Origin: Blastococcus sp. TF02A-30
GTDB taxonomy: Bacteria; Actinomycetota; Actinomycetes; Mycobacteriales; Geodermatophilaceae
Direction: 5' to 3'
Assembly (NCBI RefSeq): GCF_003319185.1
Contig: NZ_QOHJ01000002.1
Span: 186,001-250,000 of the forward strand
Length of the DNA stretch: 64,000 nt
Under the pieces are notes generated by a model, which had not been told where the DNA came from, ran no database searches, and saw nothing but the letters and a program-made list of their open reading frames with translations. The position numbers and the translations under genes were made by a program. This document shows positions 10,831 through 25,782 of the stretch, piece after piece (position 1 is the stretch's first letter; every line of letters begins with the position of its first letter).

Positions 10831-10879
10831 CGCGCAGTTGTGCTCTGCCCCGTGGAGCGGGGCAGAGCACAACTGCGCG
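10831..10879. repeat. Long palindrome, copy 1 (bidirectional terminator or REP-like)
   Basis: Perfect 22-base arms (10831-10852 and 10858-10879) around a TGGAG loop, placed between two convergent genes. The 18-base core arm CAGTTGTGCTCTGCCCCG is repeated exactly at 17818-17835, also between convergent genes. The symmetry makes it a good bidirectional terminator; the identical core at two unrelated loci also suggests a dispersed palindromic repeat family. Confidence 0.75.
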
Positions 10880-10888
10880 GGAGAGCAC

Positions 10889-15227: not shown

Positions 15228-15593
15228 GTGCATTTCGACGTGGAGCGGCGGACGGTCGCCGGCCGCTCGGTGCTCACCGTACGGGGTGAGCTCGACCTGG
15301 CGACGGCGCCACAGCTGCGCGACGCCGTCGAGGAGGCCCTGGCCGGGTCGGCGCGCGACGTCGTCGTCGACCTGACGCCCACGGCGTTCCTCGACTCCAG
15401 CGGCGCCCGGACGCTGATCAGCGTGGCCCGGACCGCGGTGGGCGCCGGCGCCGTGCTGCACGTCGTCGCCCCCACGGCGAACACGGCCGTGCGGCTGACC
15501 ATCGACCTGCTCGACCTGGGTGCCTACGTCCCGGTCGTGGGGTCCGTCGGCGAGATCCCGACGGGCATCGCCGGTCGCGACGCCGGCACGTAA
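15228..15593 (+). CDS. STAS-domain anti-sigma factor antagonist
   Basis: 121 residues, a single STAS domain. RGELDLATAPQLRDAVEEA and DLTPTAFLDSSGARTLISV identify the family; by comparison with RsbV and SpoIIAA the phosphorylated residue should be Ser57 (DSSGA). When unphosphorylated it binds the RsbW-type kinase and frees the sigma factor. The GTG start is preceded by GAGGAGGCGG. The phytochrome-phosphatase gene begins 11 bases after its stop, so the two are very likely one transcript and the phosphatase is the natural candidate to dephosphorylate this protein. Confidence 0.88.
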   Translation: MHFDVERRTVAGRSVLTVRGELDLATAPQLRDAVEEALAGSARDVVVDLTPTAFLDSSGARTLISVARTAVGAGAVLHVVAPTANTAVRLTIDLLDLGAYVPVVGSVGEIPTGIAGRDAGT

Positions 15594-15603
15594 CGTCGCC
15601 GCG

Positions 15604-17802
15604 GTGACGACGTCGCCCGCCGCCGGTAGCCGCCTCGACGAGGAAGCGCTGGTGCGCTGCGCCGACGAGCCGATCGCCGTCCCCGGTGCGATCCAGCCGC
15701 ACGGGGTGCTGCTCGCCGTCACCGAGCCCGAGCTCGCCGTCGTCGTCTCGTCCACGAACGCCGCGGAGCTCTTCGGCGGGCCGGTCGCGTCGCTGCCGGA
15801 CGTCCTGACCGACGACGACCTCACCCGGCTGCGCGAGGGGCTGGCCGGTGACCTGGCCGAGGTGAACCCGCTGCGGATGACCGTGCGCGGGGCCGAGGTC
15901 GACCTGGTCCTGCACCGCGCCGACGGGCTGCTGCTCACCGAGTGGGAGCCGGTCGCCGGCGCGGAGCAGGCCGGCGCGGCCTGGCACCGGCGGCTGCCGA
16001 CCGTGCTGCAGCGGCTGTCGGCCGCGACCACGCTGGAGGAGCTCGGCGCGACGCTGGCCCGCGACGTGCGCTCGGTGACCGGCTTCGACCGGGTGATGGT
16101 CTACCGCTTCGACCCCGAGTGGAACGGCGAGGTGATCGCCGAGGCCCGGCGCGAGGACCTCGAGCCGTTCCTCGGGCTGCGCTACCCGGCCAGCGACATC
16201 CCCGCCCAGGCCCGCGCGCTGTACACGACCAACTGGATGCGGATCATCCCCGACGCCGGCTACACCCGGGTGCCGTTGGACCCCCCGCTGCACGACGGCC
16301 GGCCGCTGGACCTCTCCGGGTCGATGCTGCGCAGCGTCTCGCCGGTGCACCTGGAGTACCTGGCCAACATGGGCGTCGTCTCGTCGATGTCGGTGTCGCT
16401 GATCGACCGCGGCAAGCTCTGGGGGCTCATCTCCTGCCACCACTACGCCGGCCCGCACCGGCCCTCGTACTCCGACCGGGTCGCCGCGGAGTTCCTCGGC
16501 CGGACCGCCTCGCTGCTGCTGCACACGCTGGTGGCCGAGGGGGAGCGGGAGGGCGTCGTCGCGGTCGCGTCGCGCGCGGCCGAGCTGTCCGCGTCCGTCG
16601 GCGCGGCCCCGCGGGCGCTGGCGGCCGCGCTCACCGGCGAGGACGTCACCGCGCTCGACCTGGTGCCGGCGGCCGGCGCGGCGGTGCGGATCAACGGCCA
16701 GCTGCGCCTGCTGGGCGCCACGCCGCCGGCCGATCGGGTGCCCGGTCTCGTGGCGTCGCTGCTCGCGGCCGGGATTTCGACCACCGACGCCGCCTCGACC
16801 GTGGTGCCGGAGGCCGCCGACCTGGTGGACACCGCCGCGGGCGTGCTCGCCGTCCCCATCGGTGGCGACGACTTCCTCGCCTGGTTCCGGCCGGAGACGC
16901 TGCGCGAGGTCACCTGGGGCGGCAACCCGTACACCTCCAAGGTGGCGCAGACCGACGCCGGCCCGCGGCTGAGCCCGCGCCGGTCGTTCGACGCGTGGAG
17001 CGAGACGGTGCGCGGGACGTCGCAGCCGTGGCGCGAGCACGAGGTTGCGGCGGCGCGGTCGCTGGCCGCGCACGTGGCGGCCGCCGCGCTGAACCGGGCG
17101 TCGGAGGACAACCGGCTGGCCGGCGCGCTGCAGCGCACCCTGCTGCTGGAGGAGCTGCCGAAGGTGCCCGGCGTCGACCTGGCGGCACGGTACCTGCCGT
17201 CGCAGGAGGACGTCGTCGGCGGCGACTGGTACGACCTCGTGCCGCTGCCGGGCGGTCGGCTGGCGGTCGTGGTGGGCGACGTCGCCGGGCACGGCCTGTC
17301 CGCGGCGGCGGTGACCGCGCAGCTCCGGCACGCGCTGCGCGCGCACCTGCTGCGCGCCGGTGGCCCGGCGGCCGCGCTGAGCGGGCTGAACGAGGTGACC
17401 AGCGCGCTGCTGCCGGGGGAGATGGCGACGGTCGTGGTGGCCGAGCTGGACCCGGCGAGCGGGGACGTCGTCCTCGCCAGCGCGGGGCACCTGCCGGTGC
17501 TGCACGTGACGGCGGACGGCGCGGACTACGTGATGGGCGGCCGCGGCCCGGCGCTGGGGGTGCTGGACACGCCGTCCTATCAGGAGGAGCGGCTGACGCT
17601 GGCCGGCGACGACCGGCTGCTGCTGTTCAGCGACGGCCTGGTGGAGCGCGGCCGCGGCGGCCTGCCGGTGGGGCTGCAGCAGCTCAAGGACGCCGTCGGC
17701 GGGTCGCCGGCCGACGCAGACGCGCTGCTGGACGCGGTGCTGACCGCGATGGCCCCACCGACCACCGACGACGTCACGCTGCTGGCGGTCGCCCGAACCT
17801 GA
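15604..17802 (+). CDS. Bacteriophytochrome-SpoIIE phosphatase fusion
   Basis: 732 residues from GTG. The photosensory core is complete: PAS with the biliverdin-binding Cys19 just before the IQPHG lasso motif, GAF with YPASDIPAQARALY (near 193) and SCHHYAGP (near 278), and PHY with the tongue motifs WGGNP and PRRSF (near 458). The output is a PP2C/SpoIIE Ser phosphatase (about 510-732) with GGDWYD, GDVAGHG and TTDDVTLL. There is no histidine kinase domain. Red/far-red light should therefore tune dephosphorylation of a phospho-STAS protein, most simply the one encoded directly upstream. Biliverdin would have to come from a heme oxygenase encoded elsewhere. Confidence 0.9.
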   Translation: MTTSPAAGSRLDEEALVRCADEPIAVPGAIQPHGVLLAVTEPELAVVVSSTNAAELFGGPVASLPDVLTDDDLTRLREGLAGDLAEVNPLRMTVRGAEVDLVLHRADGLLLTEWEPVAGAEQAGAAWHRRLPTVLQRLSAATTLEELGATLARDVRSVTGFDRVMVYRFDPEWNGEVIAEARREDLEPFLGLRYPASDIPAQARALYTTNWMRIIPDAGYTRVPLDPPLHDGRPLDLSGSMLRSVSPVHLEYLANMGVVSSMSVSLIDRGKLWGLISCHHYAGPHRPSYSDRVAAEFLGRTASLLLHTLVAEGEREGVVAVASRAAELSASVGAAPRALAAALTGEDVTALDLVPAAGAAVRINGQLRLLGATPPADRVPGLVASLLAAGISTTDAASTVVPEAADLVDTAAGVLAVPIGGDDFLAWFRPETLREVTWGGNPYTSKVAQTDAGPRLSPRRSFDAWSETVRGTSQPWREHEVAAARSLAAHVAAAALNRASEDNRLAGALQRTLLLEELPKVPGVDLAARYLPSQEDVVGGDWYDLVPLPGGRLAVVVGDVAGHGLSAAAVTAQLRHALRAHLLRAGGPAAALSGLNEVTSALLPGEMATVVVAELDPASGDVVLASAGHLPVLHVTADGADYVMGGRGPALGVLDTPSYQEERLTLAGDDRLLLFSDGLVERGRGGLPVGLQQLKDAVGGSPADADALLDAVLTAMAPPTTDDVTLLAVART

Positions 17803-17816
17803 CAGGTACCCCGAGG

Positions 17817-17859
17817 ACAGTTGTGCTCTGCCCCGCCAGGCGGGGCAGAGCACAACTGT
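17817..17859. repeat. Long palindrome, copy 2 (bidirectional terminator or REP-like)
   Basis: 19-base perfect arms (17817-17835 and 17841-17859) around a CCAGG loop, located 14 bases after the phytochrome stop and 57 bases from the end of the convergent gene. The 18-base core arm is identical to copy 1 at 10831-10879; only the loop and flanks differ. Confidence 0.75.
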
Positions 17860-17916
17860 GCTGGGCTCGCCCGGTCCAGCGCTGGAGACGGCGCCCGCCC
17901 CTGAGCCGTCGGCGGC

Positions 17917-19437
17917 TCAGGACCCGAGGGGGTTCGCCACCTCCGGCGGGCGCAACCGCTTCCCCACCTCCGTCGACAGCGCGACGGCCAGGCGCACCGC
18001 GTAGGAGTCGAGGGCGGCCGGGGTCATGGGCACCGGCACCCGCAGCGTCGCCTCGCCACCCCGGACCATCGTGCGCGTCCACGCCGAGCGGAGCGTCGTC
18101 AGCGTCAGGGCATCGGTGCGCTCGTGGTCGGCCGTGCCCGGCAGCCACTGGTCGGTGAAGGACCAGAACGCCGGCCGGAGTTGCGACCGGTAGGCCTCGG
18201 CCAGGGGGCCGGTCCCGCGCAACGGCACCCGGGCGTCGTGCAGCAGCGGGCGGTACCCCAGGCGCCCGTGCATGGCCGTGGCGAACGCCCGTCCCCGCGG
18301 ATCCGTGCCGTCCCTGCGGTAACTCCGCGCCGCGCGCTCCAGCACGGCGGTCACCGGCGTCCACCCGAGGGCAGCGCAGATGTCGTCGGCGCACCGGGCC
18401 GCGTCGTCGAGGTCAGCCGCCGGGCGGACGGCGTCCCCCAGCGCGTTCCAGATCTCCACCACCCGGCCTACCGGGTGCAGCTCGCGCAGGTCGACGCCGC
18501 GGCGGTCGAGCCGGTGGATCGGCAGGCACGGCGGGTTGAGCGCGACGTCGCAGGCCGCCAGGTGGGTGGCCAGCAGGCTCGCCGTGGTCAGCCCCGGGTA
18601 CGTCCGGCGGGTCCGCTCGAGCAGGAGGTACAGCTCGATCTCCTCGCCGCCCTCGATGCCGGCACCACCGTCGAGCACCGGGCGCAGGGTCTCCTCGTCG
18701 TCGGGATAGGCCTCGATCGCCAGCGCGGCCGACTCCATGACGCCGGCGACCGTGTAGGCGTAGGCGCTCGGCAGCGCGACCAGCAGCGCCTCGAACGCCT
18801 CCGGCGTGGGCCGGACCGGCTCCGACGCCAGCGCGAGGACGAACTCCTGCGGCCAGCGGCTCCCGCGGCGCTCGTACAGCTCCAGGATGCCGAGCTGCAG
18901 CCGCGACCAGCGCTGCTCCCAGGTGGTCGCCACGACGGGGAAGGCCATCGCCGCGCGCAGGTGCGCCCGGGGCGTGCCGGCGAGCTCCATGGCCATGGCC
19001 TCGGCCAGCTGCCACCCCTGGAGCAGCCCGGTCAGGACCGGGTCCCCGTGGTCGGGGTCGGCACCCACGGTGGGCAGGTACTCCAGCAACGGGAGCTCGA
19101 TGGGCAGCCCGGCGTCGACCAGCCAGCGCAGCATGCGGGTGACGTGGTCGTCCTGCACCGACCGCAGGAGCCACGCGTAGTAGCCGACCGTGGTGCCGAG
19201 GGCCTGGCCGGTGTGCGCCAGCTCGTGCACGTAGGTGGCGACGACCTCGTCGTAGGGGCCGTCGGGTTCCTGCCGCGCCAGGGCCGCGAGCAGGTCGGCC
19301 TGGGTGCAGTCCATCGTGAGGGTCAGCGTCGTGTGGTCGAGGAAGCCGGTGAACCGGTCGGGATCGGTGGCCGTGGTGGGCGGGTGCACCGGCTGCGGAG
19401 CGCGGGGATCGCGGCGCGCCGGGCCGGGAACGGTCAC
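17917..19437 (-). CDS. Uncharacterised protein with HExxH zinc-protease motif
   Basis: 506 residues from a GTG start that overlaps the trypco2 stop (GTGA). Near residues 71-75 is HELAH, preceded by ATYV and followed by TGQALGTT; this is the zincin metallopeptidase signature (His71, Glu72, His75). A third zinc ligand cannot be fixed; His99 or an acidic residue just before it is possible. The rest is mostly predicted alpha-helical without membrane segments, so it should be cytoplasmic. I do not recognise a named family. Its coupling to a trypco2 gene, normally a trypsin partner, suggests that it supplies the protease of a conflict system. Function is inferred. Confidence 0.6.
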   Translation of the reverse strand: MTVPGPARRDPRAPQPVHPPTTATDPDRFTGFLDHTTLTLTMDCTQADLLAALARQEPDGPYDEVVATYVHELAHTGQALGTTVGYYAWLLRSVQDDHVTRMLRWLVDAGLPIELPLLEYLPTVGADPDHGDPVLTGLLQGWQLAEAMAMELAGTPRAHLRAAMAFPVVATTWEQRWSRLQLGILELYERRGSRWPQEFVLALASEPVRPTPEAFEALLVALPSAYAYTVAGVMESAALAIEAYPDDEETLRPVLDGGAGIEGGEEIELYLLLERTRRTYPGLTTASLLATHLAACDVALNPPCLPIHRLDRRGVDLRELHPVGRVVEIWNALGDAVRPAADLDDAARCADDICAALGWTPVTAVLERAARSYRRDGTDPRGRAFATAMHGRLGYRPLLHDARVPLRGTGPLAEAYRSQLRPAFWSFTDQWLPGTADHERTDALTLTTLRSAWTRTMVRGGEATLRVPVPMTPAALDSYAVRLAVALSTEVGKRLRPPEVANPLGS

Positions 19438-19808
19438 CGGCCCCGGCGGCGCAGGCGCGGCCGGACCGGCAGCGCGTCGTCGTAGTCCAACCGGTACCGC
19501 TCCGGCGCCTCGGGACCGGCCTCGTCCGGCGCTGCCGGTGGCGCTGCTCCGGCAGCCACGAGCCGGAGCGTCATCCGCTGGGTGCGCTCGTCGCCGCGGT
19601 CGGCCTGCCCGCCGACGCTGACCACCTTGAGGTCTATGCCGGCCTGGCCCTGCCGCGAGCGGGAGACGACGAAGGACAGCTCGATCTCCAGCTCGGCCAC
19701 CTCGAACACGGGCCGGAGCCCGGCAGCGGTGCGTTCGCGCTCCGAGTCGAGGAGGTCGACGCTGAGCCGCTGGATGAGCTGCTTGACCGAGACGTCGTCG
19801 TCGTCCAT
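19434..19808 (-). CDS. Trypco2-family protein (trypsin-co-occurring domain 2)
   Basis: 124 residues. Residues about 5-90 match the trypco2 pattern: a leading helix (VSVKQLIQRLSVDLLDSE), then GLRPVFEVAELEIELSFVVS, AGIDLKVVSVGG and a closing strand TQRMTLRLV. The Pro/Ala/Arg-rich tail is probably disordered. Trypco2 domains are known from predicted NTP-dependent conflict systems, where they accompany trypsin-like proteases; their own activity is unknown. Here the downstream overlapping gene encodes an HExxH protein instead, and a giant helicase gene ends 73 bases upstream. The ATG at 19808 is chosen because the conserved domain begins at once (MDDDDVSVKQL). Confidence 0.75.
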   Translation of the reverse strand: MDDDDVSVKQLIQRLSVDLLDSERERTAAGLRPVFEVAELEIELSFVVSRSRQGQAGIDLKVVSVGGQADRGDERTQRMTLRLVAAGAAPPAAPDEAGPEAPERYRLDYDDALPVRPRLRRRGR

Positions 19809-19881
19809 GACCGCGCTCCTGCCGTCGCCGCACCCGATGGTTCTCGCGGGCGCGGCGGCGGGCAAGACCCGCGCGCGCGGC

Positions 19882-22800
19882 TCAGACGGTCAGCAGGCCG
19901 TTCGGCTGCTCGGTGAGCGTGCCGCGGTCCAGCGCCAGCTGGAGCGCCTTCTCCAGGACCGGCGTGGCCGCGGCGGTCCGCCGCTTCACGCCGAACACCG
20001 CCGCGGCCTGGGTGAGCAGCTCCTCGCGGGCCATCCCGGCCGACGCGCGGCACAGCGCCACCATCGCGTTCGCGATCTCCTCCGGCGCCACGTGGTCGAT
20101 CGGCCGGTCGGTCGCGGAGACCTGCCGCCGGAAGCCCGCGTAGGTCTCCGAGGTGACACCCTCGGGCCACAGGTAGTCGCCGTCCACCGCCGAGGGCGGC
20201 AGCAGCGACAGCAGCATCTGCTTGCGCGCCTCGGTCGAGCGGTTCAGCCCGAACGCGCCCACGGTCAGCTTGGCCAGCCGGTCGACGTGGATCGGTCCCT
20301 CGGCCTTGACGCCCGCGGCGAGGACCCGGCGCACCACGCGCGCGGCCTTCGACGCGGGCAGCTCGTCGAGCACCGACTTCTCACCGGCGGTCTTCGGGAT
20401 CCACGGCACGAACGGCTGCTCGCCGTCCATCGGCGCCGGTCCGGCCGGCTTGCGCACCACGGGCCTCGCCGGCTTGGGCTTGGCAGCGGGGGCAGGCGCG
20501 GGAGCGCTGACCGCCGCGGTCACCGACGAGCGCAGCGCGGCGACGCCCTTGAACGACTCCTGCGCCGCCGTCGGCAGCTGGATCGGCTCGGCCACCGGAG
20601 CGGCGGCCACCACCGGTGCGGCCTCGACGGCGGCCACCAGCCGGTCGACCACCGGGGCGGGGTCCAGCAGCCACGAGGGCAGCCACACCCGCTCGACCAC
20701 CGGCCAGCGCAGCATCTCGCCGAGCACCTCGACCGGCAGCCCGTCGCGGTCGCCGACCGTGCCGCGGCGCGCCCACGACGGCCCGTCCAGCAGCACCGCC
20801 ATCACCGGCGTCTCGGGGTCGGCCGGGCGGGAGACGGAGATGTCCACCCGGAACTCCGACAGCCCGACGTCGGTCCGCACCACCAGGCCGCGCTCCCGGA
20901 GGGAGGCGGCGATCTGCTCCCGGTGCCGGTCCACGACCGCCGCCGAGCGGGGCGAGCGGGGGAGGACGTCGGTGCCCTGCTCGGCCATGTCCAGGTAGGC
21001 GCGCAGGTGCTTGATGCCGACCGACGAGGTCTCCTCGGCACGCAGCTGGTCCGGGTCGAACGAGGAGAAGACGACGACCTGGCGGCGGGCGCGGGTGATC
21101 GCCACGTTCAGCCGGCGCTCGCCGCCCACCCGGTTGAGCGGCCCGAAGTTCAGCGGCAGCGTGCCGTCCTCGCGCGGCGAGAAGCCGGTCGAGAAGAAGA
21201 CGACGTCGCGCTCGTCGCCCTGCACGTTCTCCAGGTTCTTGACGAACAGGCCCTCGCCGTCGGTGCGGTCCAGCGCCGCGGCCAGCCGGTCGTCGTCGGC
21301 GTCGCGCAGCAGGGCCTCGATGTAGGCCCGCTGCTGGGCGTTGAAGGTGACCACGCCGATCGACGGGACGGCGTCGGCGCCCTCCCACTTCGGGATCGCG
21401 TCGAACCGCCGCCGGATCTCGGCCACGATCGCCCGGGCCTCGATCGGGTTGGTGCGCAGCAGCCGCCCGGCACCCGAGCGGTGGAACGTGCCGGGCACCC
21501 GCATCAGCGAGACACCGCGGCCGTCCGGCTCCGACGACGCCCGCCCGTGGGTGGGCGCCGGGAACGACGACAGCCGGTTCTCGTAGTACTGCGCGTTGGA
21601 GAACGCGATCAGCGACTCGTCCTGGCTGCGGTAGTGCCACGACAGCCACTGCCGCGGCACCCGCGCCTGCACGCACTCGCTGAGGATCGACTCCTCGTCC
21701 TCGACCGCGGTGTCCACCTCGACCGACTCGTCGGTGGAGGTCGTCGGCTCGAGGAACGACGTCGGCGGCAGCTGCTTGGAGTCGCCGACGACGACCGCGG
21801 CCTTCGCCCGGCCCAGCGCGCCGACGGCGTCGGCCACGCGGATCTGCGACGCCTCGTCGAACACGACCAGGTCGAACTGGTCGGCCGCGGCCGGGAAGAA
21901 GCGGGCCACCGAGTCCGGTGACACCAGCACGCACGGCATCACCGCGGTGATCAGCTCGCCGTACTGCGCCAGCAGCTGGCGCACACCCAGCCCGCGGCGC
22001 TGCTTGGCCAGCTCGCGCTGCAGCGCGCCGACCTGGCCGGCGCCCGAGGCGGCGTCGAACGGGCGGGCGGCCAGCACCGACGCCGGCAGCGCCGCGGTCA
22101 GGTGCTCGCGCACCGCCTTCGACGCCGCGGTGAACCGGGCGATCGCCTTCTCGTGCGCGCCCTCGTCGAACAGGTCCAGGCCGGTGGCGTCCAGCCGCTC
22201 GGCGACCGACGCCTCGGCCAGCCCGCGGTCCAAGGCGCGCACGGCGTCGTCGGCCGCGATCGCGCCGGTGACCAGCAGCCGGCGGGCGTCGAACAGCCCG
22301 GCGAAGCGCAGCGGCTCCAGGGTGTCGAGGAAGGAGACCCAGCGGCGCAGCGACACCAGCACCGAGTCCATCCCGCGCTCGGGCCGGGTCATCGACCAGC
22401 GCAGCACGAAGCCGTCGTCCCCGGCCCAGGCGGCGACCTGGTCGTCGCTGCTGCGGCAGACCTCGATCAGCCCGCGCAGCCCGTCCCGCAGCCGGGCGAC
22501 GGCGGCCGCGGCCTCGGGGCCGGCCGGCATGCCGGCGACGATCAGCTTGCGCAGCGCCACGTGGAAGGACGTCGACCCGTCGACGGCGATCCCGGCCAGC
22601 CGCAGCCACTCGACCTGGCGCTCCGGCAGCCGCGGGTCGGTGAACGGGTTCCAGCCCTCGGGCACGGTCAGCCCCGGGACGGCGTCGATGCGGGCGGCCA
22701 TCTGCTGCACCGCGGTCTGCACCCGCCACAGCGACTCGACCAGCGCCGGGACGTCCTTCGGCTTCACCTTGGCGTCGGGGCGCAGGTACGGGGCGAGCTG

Positions 22801-25782
22801 GTCGCGCACCGCGATCAGCCGGCGCCGGCGACCCCACCACGACGAGGCGGCGGCGGTCTGCGCGGCCACGTAGATGTCGGCCAGCGGGAGGCTCAGCACC
22901 TCGGGCGCGACCAGGTCCATGCCGGGGTGGCGGAAGGCGAGGAAGGCGGCGACCTCGCCGATCAGCGCGCCGGTGGTCGCCGTCCAGCGGTGCCCGAAGG
23001 TGTCGTCGAGGACGTCGAGGCCCACCGGCGGCCCGCTGAGCAGGTGCACCAGCGCGTCGAGGTCGCCCGGCGTGCGGGCGTGCCGCAGCACCCCGGCCAG
23101 CTCGGCGAGCCCACCCACCCCGCGCACCGCGGCGTCGAGCTCGGCGGCGGCCAGCTGGGTGGCGGGCAGGTCGATGGTGGGCGAGTCGACGAACGCCCAC
23201 GGGTGGCGCAGCGACGGTCGGGTGAGGTCGGCGATGTCGGGCAGCAGCGCCAGCGCGCGGCGCACCTGCAGCAGCACCTCGGCCGGGGCGTTGGCCACGA
23301 ACGGCAGCGGGATCGGCAGCGCCGCGACCTCGGTGCCGGCGGTCAGCTCCGCCGTCCGCGCGGTGTACAGCGACAGGCCGGCCGAGTTCTCCTGGTGCAG
23401 CCGGTCGGCGTAGCGGGCCAGCATCCGGCGGGCCGAGCGCAGCGTCTCGTCGTCGGCGGCCAGGCCCTGCTCGTCGACGGCCACCGCGTGCTCCAGCGCC
23501 AGCCGGATCTGCGCGCGCACCGTCGAGGCGCGGGAGCCCTTGTCGTGCAGGTCGAGGGCGAACATGCCCATGCCGACCGCGTCCAGCCGCCGGGCGACGA
23601 CGTCGAGCGCGGCGCGCTTCTCGGCGACGAACAGCACCCGCTTGCCGTCGGCGATCGCGCGGGTGAGCAGGTTGGTGATGGTCTGCGACTTGCCGGTGCC
23701 GGGCGGGCCCTCGAGCACGAACGTCCGGCCGGCGCCGGCCTCGGCGATGGCGCGCAGCTGCGACGCGTCGGCCGGCACGGGGACCTGCGCGGCCAGCTCG
23801 TCCAGGTCGACGAACGCGCCGGACCCGATCGCGGGGTCGCGGAACGGCTCGTTCGGCTCCTCGATCAGGTGCGCGACCAGCGGGTTCTGGGCGAAGTCGG
23901 CCCAGTTCTCGTCCAGGTCCTTCCACAGCCGGAACTTGGCGAACTGCAGGATCGCCAGGTCCGCCGTCGCCTCGACCCGGTAGGGCAGCCCGTGCCCGAC
24001 GAGCGCGACCCGCACAGCCTCCAGCGACGCCTCGAGGTCGAGGGCCTCGGCGCCGTCGGCCAGCGTCGGGACGGTCAGCCCGTGCACCTGCCGCAGCTTC
24101 TCCAGCAGGCAGTAGTTCGGCGTGCTGGCGCCCGACTCGTCCAGGGTCAGCCGGTAGGTGCCGGTGCGGCCGACCGGGGTGAGCACCACGGGGACGAGCA
24201 CCAGCGGCGAGCGCAGCGGGCGGCCGTCGAGCTCCCACACCAGCGAGCCCAGCGCGAGGTAGAGGTTGTTGGCGCCGGTCTCCTCCTGCACCGTCTTCGC
24301 CCGGTAGGCGAGGTTGCGCAGGCGGGGCAGGTAGCCGCCGGAGGTGACGTCGGCGTGCACCTCGCGGCGCTCGACGAGCAGCTCGGCCAGCTGGTCGGCG
24401 GGCAGCTCGCCGGCGCTGGTCAGCCCGCGCTCGGTCTGCACGGCGGCGAGCTTGTCGCCGGGCAGCAGGGTGATCGGGGTGCCGTCCTGCACGAACCGCT
24501 CGAGCACCGGCAGCGAGGTGCCGGGCACGGTGAGCGCGAGGCCGGAGCGCTCGGTGTAGTTGATCAGCCGGTTGCGCAGGCTGAGGTCGAGCAGCGCGTT
24601 CTTCCACTGCTGCACGCGTGCCGGCGCCTCGGGGCGGTTCGACGCCGTCGTCGTCGCCTCGGGGAGGACGGGCGCGCTGTGCTCGGCCGGCCGGTACTCG
24701 ACGACGTGCAGCACCCCGGCCTCGTCGCGGGCGCGGGCCGGCAGCGGCACGATCCCGTCGCGGCGGGCGCGGTGCACGTCGGTGACGCCGAGGACCTTCT
24801 CCAGGTCGCCGGTCAGCCAGCCGTCGTAGGCCGGGCGGTGCAGGTCGGCGCCGGCCTCACCCGCGCTCGTGAGCAGCGTCGTCTCGACCAGGCCGATCAG
24901 CCCGAGGTCGACCAGGTTGACCAGCGCGGCGGCGTCGGTGGTCGCGGCGGACTCGGCGCTGCGCTCCTCCCGCCAGTAGCCCAGGAACGCGTGGCCTTCC
25001 GCCAGCCAGAGCAGCGGCCGGATCCCGGCCTGCTCCACGGCGGCGGCGAGGACGACGACCAGGTCCAGCGGGGTGCCGACCCGCCAGGTGAGGACGTCGC
25101 CCGGCGAACGGACCTGCTGGCCCAGGTCGGACCAGCTGACCGGCGGCTCGCTGTAGCGGATGCCGCGGCCGCGCAGCGTCTCGGCGAGCGCGGCCACCAC
25201 CTCGTCCACCCGCTCGGCGGTGGCCGAGTAGCCGACCAGCGCGCCGCTGCCGGTGCGCTCCTCGAGCAGCGTCGCGGCGTCGGACACCAGCGCGGTGACG
25301 GCCGGATGGTTGGGCTGCACGTGCGCGGCGAGCATCTCCAGCGCCAGCGGCAGGGGAGTGGCCAGCCACTGGTTGGCCGCCAGCACCTGCACGCTGCTGC
25401 TCGCCTCGCCGACGACCTGCTTGCCGTCGGGGCCGTCGGCGATCACCTCGACGTCGATGACGCCGGGGCGCTGCTCTTCGACGTGCAGCATCGCCGCCGG
25501 GTCCATGACCAGGCCGACGTCGGTGAGCACGGTGGTACGGCCGGCGTCGACGTCGGCGAGCAGCTCGACGGCCTGCGCGATCGGCCCCTCGGCGTCGCGG
25601 ACCGACAGCCGCACGACGGCGCCGCGCAGCGTGGTGTCGCTGGTCAGCGCCAGGCGGGAGACGACCGGGAGGCGGTTGTGCGCGAGCGCGTAGCTCAGCA
25701 CCGGGGTCGACGTGAGGTCGATGGAGACCGCCGCCCGCGGCGCCACGGCGTCGCGGAGGTCCAGATCGGCAGTGCTCTCCAT
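19882..25782 (-). CDS. DUF4011/DUF3320 superfamily-1 helicase with restriction-endonuclease-like domain
   Basis: 1966 residues. In order: an N-terminal beta-rich region and a degenerate transglutaminase-like part (about 100-300), DUF4011 (about 385-440; WKNALLDLSLRNRLINY), an SF1 helicase core split by a long insertion (Walker A EGPPGTGKS near 692; Walker B VVFDEASQ near 1308; GDSKQLPPTSF; VQGDERDVVFFS; LNVAITRARR near 1564), an MTES_1575-type endonuclease-like domain (about 1630-1720), and DUF3320 plus winged-helix segments to the end. It probably unwinds nucleic acid with ATP. In the nuclease part the usual IECDG reads VLLDG, so cleavage is doubtful. Such proteins are seen as stand-alone genes and in defence neighbourhoods. 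Confidence 0.85.
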   Translation of the reverse strand: MESTADLDLRDAVAPRAAVSIDLTSTPVLSYALAHNRLPVVSRLALTSDTTLRGAVVRLSVRDAEGPIAQAVELLADVDAGRTTVLTDVGLVMDPAAMLHVEEQRPGVIDVEVIADGPDGKQVVGEASSSVQVLAANQWLATPLPLALEMLAAHVQPNHPAVTALVSDAATLLEERTGSGALVGYSATAERVDEVVAALAETLRGRGIRYSEPPVSWSDLGQQVRSPGDVLTWRVGTPLDLVVVLAAAVEQAGIRPLLWLAEGHAFLGYWREERSAESAATTDAAALVNLVDLGLIGLVETTLLTSAGEAGADLHRPAYDGWLTGDLEKVLGVTDVHRARRDGIVPLPARARDEAGVLHVVEYRPAEHSAPVLPEATTTASNRPEAPARVQQWKNALLDLSLRNRLINYTERSGLALTVPGTSLPVLERFVQDGTPITLLPGDKLAAVQTERGLTSAGELPADQLAELLVERREVHADVTSGGYLPRLRNLAYRAKTVQEETGANNLYLALGSLVWELDGRPLRSPLVLVPVVLTPVGRTGTYRLTLDESGASTPNYCLLEKLRQVHGLTVPTLADGAEALDLEASLEAVRVALVGHGLPYRVEATADLAILQFAKFRLWKDLDENWADFAQNPLVAHLIEEPNEPFRDPAIGSGAFVDLDELAAQVPVPADASQLRAIAEAGAGRTFVLEGPPGTGKSQTITNLLTRAIADGKRVLFVAEKRAALDVVARRLDAVGMGMFALDLHDKGSRASTVRAQIRLALEHAVAVDEQGLAADDETLRSARRMLARYADRLHQENSAGLSLYTARTAELTAGTEVAALPIPLPFVANAPAEVLLQVRRALALLPDIADLTRPSLRHPWAFVDSPTIDLPATQLAAAELDAAVRGVGGLAELAGVLRHARTPGDLDALVHLLSGPPVGLDVLDDTFGHRWTATTGALIGEVAAFLAFRHPGMDLVAPEVLSLPLADIYVAAQTAAASSWWGRRRRLIAVRDQLAPYLRPDAKVKPKDVPALVESLWRVQTAVQQMAARIDAVPGLTVPEGWNPFTDPRLPERQVEWLRLAGIAVDGSTSFHVALRKLIVAGMPAGPEAAAAVARLRDGLRGLIEVCRSSDDQVAAWAGDDGFVLRWSMTRPERGMDSVLVSLRRWVSFLDTLEPLRFAGLFDARRLLVTGAIAADDAVRALDRGLAEASVAERLDATGLDLFDEGAHEKAIARFTAASKAVREHLTAALPASVLAARPFDAASGAGQVGALQRELAKQRRGLGVRQLLAQYGELITAVMPCVLVSPDSVARFFPAAADQFDLVVFDEASQIRVADAVGALGRAKAAVVVGDSKQLPPTSFLEPTTSTDESVEVDTAVEDEESILSECVQARVPRQWLSWHYRSQDESLIAFSNAQYYENRLSSFPAPTHGRASSEPDGRGVSLMRVPGTFHRSGAGRLLRTNPIEARAIVAEIRRRFDAIPKWEGADAVPSIGVVTFNAQQRAYIEALLRDADDDRLAAALDRTDGEGLFVKNLENVQGDERDVVFFSTGFSPREDGTLPLNFGPLNRVGGERRLNVAITRARRQVVVFSSFDPDQLRAEETSSVGIKHLRAYLDMAEQGTDVLPRSPRSAAVVDRHREQIAASLRERGLVVRTDVGLSEFRVDISVSRPADPETPVMAVLLDGPSWARRGTVGDRDGLPVEVLGEMLRWPVVERVWLPSWLLDPAPVVDRLVAAVEAAPVVAAAPVAEPIQLPTAAQESFKGVAALRSSVTAAVSAPAPAPAAKPKPARPVVRKPAGPAPMDGEQPFVPWIPKTAGEKSVLDELPASKAARVVRRVLAAGVKAEGPIHVDRLAKLTVGAFGLNRSTEARKQMLLSLLPPSAVDGDYLWPEGVTSETYAGFRRQVSATDRPIDHVAPEEIANAMVALCRASAGMAREELLTQAAAVFGVKRRTAAATPVLEKALQLALDRGTLTEQPNGLLTV

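Follow-up and report, generated by a model that had tools for sequence, protein, structure and literature searches.

A trypco2 gene overlapping an orphan HExxH gene beside a resident ProA-family helicase in Blastococcus sp. TF02A-30

The window considered here is a stretch of 64,000 nucleotides from Blastococcus sp. TF02A-30 (contig NZ_QOHJ01000002.1, positions 186,001 to 250,000), in which a helicase gene, a small trypco2 gene and a gene for a 506-residue protein with an HExxH motif follow one another on the minus strand. The run ends opposite a convergent gene on the plus strand, and its features are as follows.

15520-17802, plus strand: flanking gene for a PAS_2-GAF-PHY-SpoIIE phosphatase (Pfam), at the left edge of the stretch that is absent in relatives
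17811-17865, no strand assigned: hairpin separating the HExxH gene from the phytochrome/SpoIIE gene that converges on it
17917-19437, minus strand: HExxH ORF of 506 residues, an orphan in the trypsin slot, with one HELAH
19213-19227, minus strand: HELAH codons, residues 71-75 of the 506-residue protein
19434-19808, minus strand: trypco2 gene of 124 residues, with Pfam PF19631 at residues 6-84
19809-19881, minus strand: spacer of 73 bases from the helicase stop to the trypco2 start
19882-25782, minus strand: helicase ORF of 1966 residues with an ATG start

The layout that had been predicted from the letters alone, with three minus-strand genes, a GTGA overlap, a 73-base spacer and a helicase of 1966 residues, agrees with the ORFs and their coordinates. 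The overlap is one of 4 bases, the GTG of the 506-residue gene and the TGA of trypco2 sharing GTGA. Third-position GC is high in the helicase (0.985), trypco2 (0.920) and HExxH (0.963) genes and the order of the codon positions is as expected of genes here, with values of 0.757/0.533/0.963 over the three positions of the 506-residue gene; on the strength of this codon-position GC all three ORFs are taken to be real genes. An opposite-strand ORF of 453 residues that runs over the trypco2 and HExxH genes was rejected, its third-position GC (0.775) being below that of its own first position. The frame of the HExxH gene stays open to 19833, which would give a protein of 638 residues; the added part has a non-coding profile (0.93/0.81/0.49), so the longer version was discarded and the 506-residue start kept. 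A Pfam scan of the neighbours, covering a part of the ORFs in the window, turned up sensor and signalling genes along with metabolic ones, and thus no classical defence island is seen among the ORFs scanned.

The helicase can be placed in a named family. Against the NCBIfam model NF058533, 'anti-phage protein ProA', it scores 1679.9 bits where the curated cut-off is 1500, and the match is full-length, taking in positions 1-1903 of the 1903 of the profile and residues 30-1934 of the 1966 of the protein; against the PADLOC model PDC-S37 it scores 905 bits. The order of Pfam domains is DUF4011 (residues 397-563, E 1.2e-31), AAA_11, AAA_12 and an MTES_1575 nuclease, followed by a weak DUF3320 below its cut-off. 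By profile the helicase is a ProA-family member, and protection against phage would be predicted from the family name; no publication introducing the name ProA turned up in the literature searched by names, domains and models. The DUF4011 anti-phage protein Hhe (NCBIfam NF042953) is similar in so far as its model partly matches the helicase and nuclease region, and membership of that family was rejected with a score of 567.5 bits against a cut-off of 2000. About 14-20 kb to the left of the window (G000:C17:166510-171936) there is a second ProA-like helicase match, which is more distant and scores below the cut-off.

Defence genes are usually sporadic. The likeness of the helicase to ProA and PDC-S37 consists in the whole-profile match over the NF058533 cut-off and the PDC-S37 score; the difference is that here the gene is both fixed and syntenic within the genus. 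It passes the NF058533 cut-off in all 22 other same-genus genomes and in 75 of the 108 genomes of the bacterial family, with some match in 103 of these and no match over the cut-off in 33, and among 14 named control genomes there were 7 weak matches, none of them over the cut-off. Synteny was compared in 20 of the 22 same-genus genomes, G010 being left out because it lies near a contig end and G019 to keep the set to 20. The helicase aligns end to end in all 20, at 83-86% DNA identity, an enoyl-CoA hydratase gene stands on its other side in 19, and the phosphatase block also aligns in 19, with the alignment ending at 17802-17809. The helicase is a resident gene whose location is shared by the same-genus genomes fetched, and from this conserved placement vertical inheritance may be inferred. 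Outside the genus its setting is less constant, since among 20 hand-picked loci from other genera the fetched stretch includes the phosphatase in 8, the hydratase in 6 and either of them in 10. Presence in every same-genus genome, in 75 of 108 genomes of the family and at a conserved place in 20 loci raises the question of another role: a ProA-named helicase in every same-genus genome examined suggests an innate defence that has become fixed or else a housekeeping function hidden by the name.

The ground between the helicase and the convergent phytochrome-phosphatase gene, which is where the trypco2 and HExxH genes are found, is a variable slot. Within the 20 same-genus loci no alignment of at least 120 bases at E 1e-10 reaches inside 17810-19867, and when the trypco2 and HExxH proteins were used as queries none of 40 helicase loci (the 20 same-genus loci and the 20 from other genera) gave a match, even with the complexity filter off and the threshold at E 0.01. 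The slot measures 410-4286 bases in the 19 loci where both flanks are present. Its content in the same-genus loci is a small gene of about 110 residues in 11 of 20 (L034, L036, L039-L042, L044, L045, L048, L050 and L052) and rtcB, behind the ProA helicase, in 5 of 20 (L033, L035, L043, L046 and L047); for the small gene of L045 Pfam gave nothing up to E 1. A comparable arrangement is the core defence hotspot cDHS1 of Pseudomonas aeruginosa, where, according to the available part of PMC10250203, a core DUF4011 gene flanks a variable slot. The two are alike in having a core DUF4011 gene by such a slot; by comparison with cDHS1 as described there the slot here is small, and in 16 of the 20 same-genus loci it is taken by the small gene or rtcB.

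Do the helicase and the two genes behind it belong together? The original prediction was of a single conflict module, in which the helicase would sense or process nucleic acid and the trypco2-HExxH pair would be the effector arm. The three genes do share a strand, with a spacer of 73 bases, and the family of the helicase is annotated as anti-phage. No terminator-like or sigma-70-like site was found in 17750-20100, and the spacer region 19809-19890 folds no better than shuffles (z-score -1.22), so that read-through from the helicase is possible; the common strand, short spacer and lack of a terminator would be compatible with co-transcription of helicase and pair. Set against the single module is the finding that the helicase is without the pair in 40 of the 40 loci examined, together with the fact that at least 16 of the 20 same-genus loci have other genes in the slot. 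With the gene fixed in the genus (22 of 22) and the pair missing at every other helicase locus examined (40 of 40), membership of the helicase in such a module is not supported, and a single three-gene system is decidedly improbable.

On the far side of the pair lies the hairpin at 17811-17865, an inverted repeat with 27-nt arms that are 93% complementary; the region 17800-17920 folds with a z-score of -5.69, and the hairpin could possibly act as a two-way terminator between the convergent genes. The repeat gives 12 matching pieces at 6 places in its own genome. Two of these six places, at which a hairpin of about 45-55 bases recurs, are in the window (17811-17865 and 10832-10881), and the element may be a dispersed terminator or a REP-like repeat.

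The trypco2 assignment of the middle gene is secure, with a match to PF19631 (E 7.4e-18, 65 bits) well over the gathering cut-off of 24.2, as had been foreseen. In an alignment with 12 others it is a divergent member of its family, and it has a tail past the domain (residues 85-124), as do many others. Trypco2 genes are sparse: in the family 6 of 108 genomes have them, in the class 40 of 394. Used as a query in a contig scan, this trypco2 protein gave no match, and another trypco2 likewise matched nothing among plasmids and phages. We know of no function shown for trypco2, and the adjoining trypsin is the main clue to it.

What stands behind trypco2 elsewhere was established from 59 other loci, made up of 7 of 8 family places and 52 of 56 class places after removal of the locus itself, the 56-position fragments G434:C13 and G434:C37 and the second piece of G435:C78; the set contains some partial matches, and the partner is the longest ORF picked automatically downstream. 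In 42 of the 59 that ORF has a Trypsin_2 match, and a trypsin-start motif lies within 1500 bases after trypco2 in 43 of 59 loci, against 0 of 260 control stretches. The other 17 picked neighbours have no Trypsin_2 match, partly because the automatic choice of ORF was wrong in some loci (L138, for instance). These counts agree with the premise that trypco2 domains go with trypsin-like proteases and with the original description, where the available text has trypco1 or trypco2 accompanying trypsin-like peptidases in VMAP systems (PMC7159879). One same-genus genome (L073) has three trypco2-trypsin tandems in a row. A trypco2 with the usual trypsin partner is also carried by a mobilizable Rhodococcus plasmid (L193, NZ_CP088977.1), between a MobF relaxase and an IS1634 transposase, a position which suggests that such cassettes can travel.

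At the present locus the resemblance to the VMAP-type pairs, as the accessible sections of PMC7159879 describe them, is that trypco2 directly precedes a large gene on the same strand; the difference is that the partner is not trypsin-like and has an HExxH motif. Pfam finds no trypsin in the 506-residue protein, a trypsin-start motif is lacking over the 1500 bases that follow this trypco2, and HExxH occurs in none of the 59 ORFs picked downstream of the other trypco2 genes. VMAP, vWA and MoxR genes are absent from the 14 window ORFs scanned. The earlier idea of the locus therefore divides: its protease slot is indeed filled by a different protein, with Trypsin_2 missing here and present in 42 of 59 loci elsewhere, while the inclusion of the helicase in the module finds no support. 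A non-trypsin neighbour has a precedent. At the retroelement locus treated in the available text of PMC10907252, trypco2 adjoins a target protein that has a caspase-like CHAT domain and a TIR domain, so that a neighbour other than trypsin is in itself nothing new for trypco2. That diversity-generating retroelement case shares with the present one the non-trypsin neighbour and differs, so far as it is described there, in the identity of the partner and the company of a retroelement. A trypsin slot filled by another protein is unusual, yet it has this parallel (PMC10907252, available text).

It could be argued that the trypco2 gene is a remnant, left by a trypco2-trypsin system that has lost its peptidase, and that the 506-residue gene behind it is unrelated. 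The sporadic occurrence of trypco2 (6 of 108 genomes), the trypsin partner in 42 of 59 loci and the lack of any HExxH partner in those 59 would all be in keeping with such a history. A remnant would, on the other hand, sit uneasily with a domain that is intact and has a coding profile, with the 4-base overlap between the two genes, and with the absence of any trypsin motif in the 1500 bases that follow, and we consider the remnant explanation unlikely.

The 506-residue protein itself has no match in PADLOC, NCBIfam, PHROGs or PDB, and a single sub-threshold row in Pfam; for NCBIfam neither it nor the trypco2 protein finds a family up to E 10. Relatives were sought in samples of 112 family, 394 class, 396 phylum and 397 order genomes, which overlap and come to 1299 genomes counted with repeats. 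The family and class samples returned its own genome only, the phylum sample (E 0.1) its own genome and scraps in 11 others of at most 17.2 bits, and the order sample (E 0.01) its own genome and scraps in 5 others of at most 23.5 bits. A tblastn comparison of these weak loci gave alignments for 6 of 12 in the phylum set and 3 of 5 in the order set, 9 of 17 altogether, and in the nine aligned loci HELAH is never opposite another HExxH. The best of the weak loci, L160 (E 7.9e-5), has a stop inside, and neither L160 nor L161 gave a match at E 1 in another tblastn run. No relatives appeared in plasmids, phages, viral contigs or genome contigs, where the contig scans first need exact short peptides, and a plasmid search at E 10 with a 150-residue part of the protein gave 4 rows, all of them chance. 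The trypco2-HExxH pair is a two-gene stretch of about 2 kb that is present, among the genomes searched, only in this one.

How much weight can be given to the motif? The protein has a single HELAH at residues 71-75, so the predicted numbering of its glutamate as Glu72 is right. By chance, 1.8% of 20,000 shuffled versions of the protein contain HExxH, and the motif is found in 5 of 384 coding-like ORFs of at least 150 residues from the window and the loci of 40 relatives, a background from which the filter excluded the 506-residue protein itself. With a chance level of 1-2%, the motif alone is no more than suggestive. The longer stretch HELAHTGQALGTTVG is presumably like the HExxHxxQxxxTxxG pattern of unnamed bacterial proteins, and a pattern of this type occurred in 0 of 20,000 shuffles, having been picked after the sequence was seen. 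Single-sequence structure models (pLDDT 37.1 and 46.6) are too poor to place a third ligand. HELAH may accordingly be an accident, and the protein a fast-evolving effector or regulator of unknown fold that is still paired with trypco2; the chance frequencies agree with this, as does the want of a profile over threshold and of an assignable third ligand. Two things weigh the other way, namely that the motif sits in a gene which replaces a peptidase and that the models, unreliable as they are, put it in a helix. An accidental motif is a real possibility that falls well short of probable. The protein may fairly be termed an orphan with a zincin-like motif, and as far as its letters go it should not be called a metalloprotease; that it is an active metallopeptidase we hold to be quite possible, at somewhat under an even chance.

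Zincin-type peptidases are already familiar from conflict loci. NCBIfam probably includes a model of the HExxH/MPTase FxSxx-type family. In the MPTase/FxSxx-COOH pairs, as the available text of PMC7159879 (section 24) presents them, a zincin-type peptidase gene is joined by a small gene, and by analogy the HExxH protein might process the trypco2 protein as the VMAP MPTase would its small precursor, by cleavage of the C-terminal tail. The tail ends acidic and then basic, though other trypco2 proteins have tails too. The present pair differs in that profiles do not match it and the ORFs scanned include no partner genes: even at E 10 NCBIfam recognises neither protein, and the 14 window ORFs that are free of VMAP, vWA and MoxR are free of radical-SAM genes as well. 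Peptide processing is a highly improbable explanation of the pair.

We favour a reading in which two separate things lie side by side, a resident ProA helicase and an independent trypco2 cassette with an unusual partner, and would give it about an even chance of being right as a whole. Its parts differ in strength. The helicase and the trypco2-HExxH cassette are very likely to be functionally separate, and the trypco2 and 506-residue proteins probably work together. The pair is treated as a unit on account of the 4-base overlap and the joint presence of its genes; a single genome cannot tell a selected unit from two genes that landed together.

Under the reading of a separate cassette beside a resident helicase, the cassette would work like other trypco2 systems. 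The trypco2 protein would be made just before its large partner, with probable translational coupling through the GTGA overlap, and would bind the partner and either silence it or couple it to a trigger. The 506-residue partner would then be the effector, most simply a zincin-type peptidase that acts through HELAH and stands in for the usual trypsin-like one. The helicase would probably act alone, translocating on and cutting foreign nucleic acid, and the cassette may borrow its transcript by read-through. The strongest version of this, in which a zinc metallopeptidase from a family not yet described has replaced the trypsin-like peptidase of a trypco2 cassette, is rather unlikely.

A trypco2 with another partner would suggest that the adaptor reads something besides the trypsin fold, and the CHAT/TIR neighbour in the available text of PMC10907252 points the same way. 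Should the metallopeptidase swap be true, trypco2 would serve as a general adaptor to effector peptidases that are unrelated to one another, and such cassettes would have a landing site in the slot next to core DUF4011 helicases. With its 506-residue partner, trypco2 forms a small two-gene system that is open to testing. A minor observation concerns rtcB, for which the match in the present genome (L196, G000:C28:239500-252500) is split into two pieces with about 9.5 kb between them. This interval contains a WapI-like immunity gene and a weak integrase-like match that stays under the Pfam cut-off, so rtcB may have been invaded by a mobile element.
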